Assembly (NCBI GenBank): GCA_947624485.1 | Contig: CANQKM010000001.1 | Location: 186,001 to 250,000 of the forward strand | Length of the DNA stretch: 64,000 bases | Source: an uncultured Clostridia bacterium | GTDB taxonomy: Bacteria > Bacillota > Clostridia > UBA1381 | Direction of reading: 5' to 3' | Shown here: in pieces, positions 17,076 to 50,431 of the stretch | Position numbering within the stretch: the stretch's first letter is position 1 | How the letters are laid out: every line of letters starts with the position of its first letter | Position numbers and translations under genes: made by a program | Notes under the pieces: generated by a model | Databases searched by the model: none | Seen by the model: only the letters and a program-made list of their open reading frames with translations | Told to the model about the DNA's origin: nothing

Positions 17076-17104
17076 TTGACATTGTCCTTGGGATTTGTTA
17101 TAAT
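17076..17104 (+). promoter_or_regulatory. Consensus promoter of a small transcript
   Basis: TTGACA (17076-17081), 17 bases, TATAAT (17099-17104): both hexamers match consensus exactly. It fires into a region without a conventional gene. Confidence 0.85.
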
Positions 17105-17110
17105 AGGATC

Positions 17111-49978: not shown

Positions 49979-50077
49979 TTTTGTATTCCTCCGATATGTT
50001 TATACCTTTTCAGTATACCACATATAAGAGAAAATTTCCAGTATTATTTATATGTTTTTGCTTTTTATTTCAGCGTA

Positions 50078-50240
50078 AAAAAATAAAGCGGTACAGCAGG
50101 TGCGCGATGCACAAAGCCCCGTCGCTCACGTCCGAAACGAGCCTGCTGATACCGCTTCAGCTGTAGAGCAGCAATCACTGATAATGCGAGATAATTCGCC
50201 CCAGTTGCACGCCCAAGACGTAGTTACTGATACAGCTTAT
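50078..50240 (-). ncRNA. Small RNA B (unclassified), promoter-proximal to ywlE
   Basis: A stretch of about 163 nt without a coding frame, between a promoter (50246-50274) and a long hairpin with a T tract (50078-50087). Features on the minus strand: AGCTGTA near the start can pair with TACAGCT (about 50161-50167), enclosing CGTC/GGCG and GCGA/TCGC small stems. The 3' part is a strong stem, AAGCGGTA..CAGCAGG with CCTGCTGTACCGCTT, carrying an inner loop region. I considered 6S RNA, but the 5' and 3' ends do not pair with each other. Ends are approximate. Confidence 0.6.
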
Positions 50241-50245
50241 ACTGT

Positions 50246-50274
50246 AATATACCACCAAATAAAAGGATTGTCAA
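50246..50274 (-). promoter_or_regulatory. Promoter of small RNA B
   Basis: Minus strand: TTGACA (50269-50274), 17 bases, TATATT (50246-50251), preceded by TGG. It lies in one copy of a duplicated ~49-bp segment. Confidence 0.8.
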
Positions 50275-50293
50275 GCGTCCTGTTATATAATAC

Positions 50294-50375
50294 AAAAAGG
50301 CGTCGGAAGTGTCAGATATTCAAAAGATGAACCCCTGACAGACGCCTGATAACGCTCTCCCGAACAATGCCTTCA
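50294..50375 (-). ncRNA. Small RNA A (unclassified)
   Basis: About 80 nt from the second promoter copy. The 3' part is one long hairpin: GGCGTC (50341-50346 complement) and TGTCAG pair with CTGACA and GACGCC, with a 5-nt CTTCC bulge, and end in TTTTT (50294-50298). The 5' part contains an AATG/CATT stem and the purine-rich GGGAGAG. An ATG at the 5' end opens an 18-codon frame without a ribosome binding site. Ends are approximate. Confidence 0.6.
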
Positions 50376-50380
50376 TTGAT

Positions 50381-50409
50381 AATATACCACCGAATAAAGG
50401 GAATGTCAA
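50381..50409 (-). promoter_or_regulatory. Promoter of small RNA A
   Basis: Minus strand: TTGACA (50404-50409), 17 bases, TATATT (50381-50386), preceded by TGG. Confidence 0.8.
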
Positions 50410-50431
50410 GCGTCCTGTTAATATAATACAC

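Follow-up and report, generated by a model that had tools for sequence, protein, structure and literature searches.

Toxin-antitoxin systems of two kinds are the closest described counterparts of the locus reported here. In type III systems (ToxIN and its relatives; PMC8860590, PMC5086642) a structured noncoding RNA is encoded together with an endoribonuclease, in a host-phage setting, and in the type I systems of Gram-positive bacteria, such as TxpA/RatA and yonT/SR6 (PMC3531473, PMC5848175), which are common in prophages, an antisense RNA with a promoter of its own overlaps the 3' side of the toxin gene. Palindromes that occur both inside protein genes and in intergenic gaps are known from the Rickettsia palindromic elements and similar repeats (PMC2229807). 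On the protein side, the paper that defines the PBECR domains of polyvalent proteins predicts that they are RNases and may be engaged in a conflict with RNA-based systems of the host (PMC5512222); its main text contains none of the words antisense, promoter, small RNA and linker. A literature search, thin on subscription journals, likewise returned no report of RNAs such as those described below.

We analysed a window of 64,000 nucleotides from an uncultured Clostridia bacterium of the gut, in which two predicted small RNA genes lie in the gap between araA and ywlE. Our central proposal, to which we give about an even chance, is that these RNAs are an antitoxin-like partner of PBECR3 RNases, kept in the window as solitary copies after loss of the nuclease.

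Two RNA genes in the araA-ywlE gap

A first-pass annotation had described two promoter-RNA units here. Both units are real, with the correction that every RNA-gene feature of 50077-50430 lies on the minus strand. The promoters of RNA1 (50381..50409, minus strand; extended -10 with TGG) and RNA2 (50246..50274, minus strand; extended -10) are, as had been claimed, near-identical TTGACA-17-TATATT sites, each matching the consensus at 11 of 12 positions and each with a TGn extension; equally strict sites (at least 11/12, TG, spacer 17) number only 8 across the whole 64 kb. A 12/12 site (TTGACA-17-TATAAT, with TG) is found elsewhere in the window, at 17076-17105, and is followed by a short hairpin and a T tract. 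The duplicated segments around the two promoters, put at about 49 bp, align over 50 bp with three substitutions and one internal gap (copy 1, 50381..50430; copy 2, 50246..50295, with upstream TATTATATAACAGGACGC; both minus strand).

The two RNAs share a fold of about 60-100 nt with a wider family described below, consisting of a closing stem P1, a stem-loop P2 with the motif CGUYUYGGRCG and a stem-loop P3 with GG...CAU. The body of RNA1 (50297..50373, minus strand) folds into one closed hairpin with a P2-like loop, CGUUAUCAGGCG, and a P3 of UGUCAG...CUGACA, and runs into a U tract at 50298-50294 (minus strand). RNA2 is itself composed of two homologous hairpins in tandem, hairpin 1 at 50159..50238 (P2 CGUCUUGGGCG at 50220-50210) and hairpin 2 at 50086..50157 (P2 CGUUUCGGACG at 50139-50129), and is terminated by a U tract (TTTATTTTTTT, 50077..50087), all on the minus strand. 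Compared with dinucleotide shuffles, RNA1 (~80 nt) folds with z=-3.2 and RNA2 (~165 nt) with z=-2.6, and the folds and U tracts confirm that each RNA carries a hairpin and T tract of its own at its 3' end. Both thus have the full anatomy of the family, namely a sigma-A promoter of their own, a closed hairpin and a U tract; the P2 motif is present in both RNA2 hairpins, and RNA1 has only the variant loop. The annotation had held that the RNA bodies are not duplicated, and indeed they are not copies of each other, yet they are related: RNA1 appears to belong, as a divergent member, to the same family as the RNA2 hairpins.

A known RNA family as the identity of the units was ruled out. The Rfam covariance check that had been proposed, run with Rfam 15 on the window and 13 member loci, gave no family at gathering score on the RNAs, and relaxing the scan of the window RNAs to E<=10 gave nothing convincing.

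Comparison of the araA-ywlE gap among relatives placed RNA2 there in five species (G000, the window genome, and four of the same genus, G010, G005, G008 and G011) and RNA1 there only in G000 and G010. The RNA1 promoter is kept in G010. The tandem layout seen as a pair is local, being found in 2 of the 5 species with the locus. Identity to four relatives is 96-97% over RNA2 hairpin 1, as opposed to 74-79% at the four-fold sites of araA (P 1e-4 to 1e-6); interspecies exchange could explain part of this conservation, which counts against the partner reading. Hairpin 2 occurs as two alleles among the relatives, with compensatory and some broken pairs, and is deleted in G011.

The plus strand of the window retains traces of a protein gene. 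At 50073..50090 the codons GCG TAA AAA AAT AAA GCG (A*KNKA) are a relic of the C-terminal end of PBECR3, which reads AYKNKA in G011 and SAYKNKA in the intact G109; beyond this relic the window holds no recognisable domain, and a search for PBECR3 in the 91%-complete window genome found none. Opposite RNA1 (50294..50411, plus strand) the DNA reads as a broken linker protein, KASEVSDIQKMNP*QTPDNALPNNAFIDNIPPNKGNVK, and this coding relic, KKASEVSDIQKMNP*QTPDNALPNNAFIDNIPPNKGNVK, has one stop and 65% identity to a polyvalent ORF of G005. The RNA1 promoter is the reverse complement of a linker motif, DNI(S/P)Q...VK. In G005 the RNA1 homologue lies elsewhere (L024), with an 11/12 promoter of its own, antisense within a 2,204-aa ORF and directly after a Pfam PBECR3 domain. 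In G109, which belongs to another family, a unit that follows PBECR3 (...SAYKNK followed directly by AAEQQALIMRDNSPQLHARDV...) is a close homologue of RNA2 hairpin 1. The solitary window copies thus have no PBECR3 neighbour, which their homologues in G005 and G109 do have.

The window locus could be viewed as what a lost prophage gene left behind, a scar without function in which the promoters survive by chance, in keeping with the domain-end relic, the broken linker frames and the units that sit among decayed PBECR3-like fragments on other chromosomes (L324, L330). This is rather unlikely in our view, as the promoter and hairpin 1 of RNA2 are intact in five species despite 21-26% divergence at four-fold sites, and the terminators are present as well. 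Of such units, it seems, the nuclease portion is prone to decay and the RNA portion is retained.

A dispersed family of antisense units in polyvalent genes

The first-pass reading of a co-regulated sRNA pair stands as far as the two sRNA genes go, on their promoter and terminator anatomy and on the retention of RNA2 in five species, but it tells only part of the story: they are members of a dispersed family whose usual position is antisense in phage polyvalent genes, beside PBECR3. The units, found in Clostridia and in viral contigs, follow one plan: antisense in a giant polyvalent ORF, a consensus sigma-A promoter is followed by a single closed hairpin and then by a U tract. Many of the units have P2 in common. 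A DNA pattern combining the promoter and P2 gave 18 matches, spread over 15 of the 311 Clostridia genomes, compared with 2 for a reversed control, and in viral DNA it picked out 70 stretches; these yield 31 closed hairpins that differ from one another, and 27 of the 31 lie opposite long ORFs. A strict-pattern scan of genome contigs returned only one Oscillospiraceae contig, MSHM01000003.1, the pattern being too strict, and a search of the phage and plasmid collections for RNA2-like DNA returned none. A promoter-only pattern in viral contigs was set aside since it recovered mostly ordinary gene promoters, as did a class-wide promoter pattern. Further units with unrelated hairpin sequences and the same plan were found in G005 (two), G021, G019, G109 and a viral ART-PolyVal ORF.

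Six units stand in a row in G109, three of them within one ORF, and G003 holds decayed arrays. Chromosomal gaps of these two genomes (G003, L025:5900-7770; G109, L204:7000-10200) each contain an array of four to six antisense units, all different and interspersed with polyvalent fragments that are intact or decayed, as though polyvalent genes had landed and decayed there time and again. Some contigs also hold known RNAs: a Gut-1 RNA (RF01706, 77 bits) follows a tRNA cluster at L315:1137-1211, a few hundred bases from an antisense unit, and Skipping-rope RNAs (RF02924) with strong TTTACA-17-TATAAT promoters are found at L172:5121-5217, L173:6295-6373 and L169:213-293, on contigs that carry PBECR3-like genes as well.

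The antisense bias was counted over whole genes. Fifteen complete polyvalent ORFs (80 kb), a less biased set since most were chosen by protein search, contained 12 antisense and 0 sense units, compared with 0.70 and 0.13 in synonymous shuffles. Six more long ORFs (38 kb) contained 3 antisense and 0 sense units against a null of 0.0, with one unit in each of the three found via LPD38 or by other means. In a control set of other long viral ORFs, 95 kb in all, a single antisense unit was found (0.4 expected per replicate); it lies in L130 (a 1,890-aa ORF), which is also counted among the six. The 27 ORFs that had been selected for one unit held 5 extra antisense and 0 sense units (0.3 and 0.1 expected). 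The promoter exceeded a synonymous-codon null at 11 of 11 loci (P 0.001-0.023), a test that would be biased if taken alone because some loci were picked via promoter patterns or scans, and the hairpin did so at 6 of 11. In the 27 ORFs opposite a P2, the motif is read in frame 0 (TSET/TSKT/TPET) in 16 and in frame 1 (VQN/VRN/AQD) in 11, and since the same bases are read in two frames it is the nucleotides that are conserved, not the peptide. The codon shuffles and this two-frame reading together rule out the unit as a by-product of a protein motif.

Pairing was assessed by exchanging stem arms between units. The P1 arms of 31 units pair at -10.6 kcal/mol with their own partners and at -5.6 when swapped (P<=0.0002), a test that is independent of any fold, as the arms were set by promoter and U-tract position only; for P3, anchored on P2, the values were -8.2 and -6.0 (P<=0.0002). 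The compensatory changes that the annotation had asked for in relatives were found across the family. Among close homologues, we counted 8 compensatory pairs and 14 broken pairs, the latter counting against the partner reading, so that pairing is largely but not universally maintained. MAFFT alignment of divergent members resolved P2 only. As far as sequence can tell, the units are an undescribed family of structured small RNAs, of which the window holds solitary members.

PBECR3 on the N-terminal side of the units

When Pfam was given only the 186-225 residues N-terminal of each of 20 units found by DNA pattern alone, 17 had PBECR3 (PF18812, an RNase domain) directly on that side, two of these below the Pfam cut-off. 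In most of the 17 cases only a few residues separate the end of the domain from the RNA terminator, the U tract of the unit deriving from the Lys/Asn codons at the domain end (AYKNK). In the reverse direction, 8 viral loci found by PBECR3 protein alone yielded 3 strong units directly 3' of the domain and a fourth, weaker one. Three observations count against the partner reading here: roughly half of the viral PBECR3 loci in this unbiased set have no unit or only a weak one, some units follow other or unrecognised domains (L253, with LPD23; L257; L284), and the stand-alone PBECR3 proteins of close relatives, which make up most PBECR3 matches there and stop after the domain, showed no unit. A tblastn search with PBECR3 in the phage and plasmid collections gave no match. 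The alignment used for the protein search, A3, consisted of fetched sequences only. Many such stand-alone PBECR3-like proteins (FVGKIDREIYKCV...KILYKRE-stop) occur at L138-L161 in close relatives, and their sequence is strikingly conserved past the stop codon.

This placement bears on two further explanations. The units could be mobile palindromic elements (RPE-, REP- or MITE-like) that insert in frame into tolerant linkers and intergenic gaps, given that they are palindromic and dispersed over genes and gaps, form arrays in G003 and G109, and have hairpin alleles that are swapped and lost. A mobile element does not account for a fixed strand, for one domain neighbour in 17 of 20 cases or for boundaries that coincide with the domain end, and we downgraded it to improbable because the promoter and terminator are under selection and the position is domain-specific. 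Equally improbable, we think, is that the linker hairpins are recombination tags, that is homology or single-strand sites for the shuffling of phage toxin domains, with the RNA incidental. Polyvalent proteins are highly mosaic (PMC5512222), the hairpins lie exactly at domain boundaries and they recombine at the window locus, but such tags would not require consensus promoters spaced at 17 bp or a one-strand terminator.

A putative RNA partner and its place among known systems

In the arrangement that we propose, a strong sigma-A-type promoter within linker codons would drive an antisense folded RNA that ends at the edge of PBECR3, and this RNA would act as the dedicated partner of the domain, like an antitoxin. 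Two modes of action may be considered. The folded RNA may bind and restrain the RNase of the same gene, as in type III systems, or it may pair with the sense mRNA, as in type I systems; by either route the nuclease would be silenced up to the point at which the polyvalent protein is produced or injected. We favour the first because the fold is conserved independently of the reading frame, which points to a protein that recognises it, the neighbouring RNase being the simplest candidate.

That the RNAs are purely antisense silencers, which act only on the polyvalent mRNA by pairing to its sense linker (RNase III), with host copies silencing incoming phage mRNAs in trans, we consider unlikely, if less so than a scar at the window locus. 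Such silencing would suit the way in which the RNA overlaps the 3' edge of the nuclease coding sequence, in antisense and with perfect complementarity, as in TxpA/RatA and yonT/SR6 (PMC3531473, PMC5848175), and the near identity of host hairpin 1 to the antisense unit of the G109 ORF. However, an RNA that acts by pairing would have no need of a conserved P2/P3 motif, and this one persists across frames and lineages.

For an RNA that acts as a partner of PBECR3, the araA-ywlE copies would be remnants of units whose nuclease was lost, kept by the host, most simply, to blunt PBECR3 nucleases or mRNAs from incoming phages; solitary host copies would fit a defensive or anti-addiction role. More tentatively, and with the balance of probability against it, the PBECR3 coding sequences of phages may carry on their other strand, precisely at the boundary of the domain, the gene of an autonomous neutralising RNA that hosts capture alone as anti-phage immunity. 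If true, toxin-RNA pairs of a new and widespread kind would exist, the solitary antitoxin-like RNAs of gut Clostridia could represent a form of RNA-based defence that has been overlooked, and the RNases of polyvalent proteins, whose target and control are obscure, would gain a testable RNA partner. A case of dual coding is documented as well, in which the codons for the linker of a giant protein also contain, in antisense, a promoter-RNA-terminator gene.

Set beside the known systems, the unit agrees with each in part. ToxI lies in sense and upstream of its toxin, co-transcribed with it as a repeat array, whereas the present RNA is antisense, has its own promoter, is usually a single hairpin and sits at the 3' domain edge inside a giant ORF; the toxin candidate here has a predicted BECR fold, and its binding and inhibition by the RNA are putative. 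The antisense overlap with a toxin mRNA that marks type I systems is present in polyvalent ORFs and absent for the solitary window copies. The toxin also differs, being an RNase domain, PBECR3, of a huge multi-domain protein in place of a small hydrophobic peptide, as does the RNA, a conserved folded family with solitary copies. Unlike the Rickettsia elements, the units have a promoter and a terminator of their own, both under selection, keep to one strand and occupy a set position next to a single family of domains. On the protein side, the unit belongs to the PBECR/LPD polyvalent proteins already described (PMC5512222).
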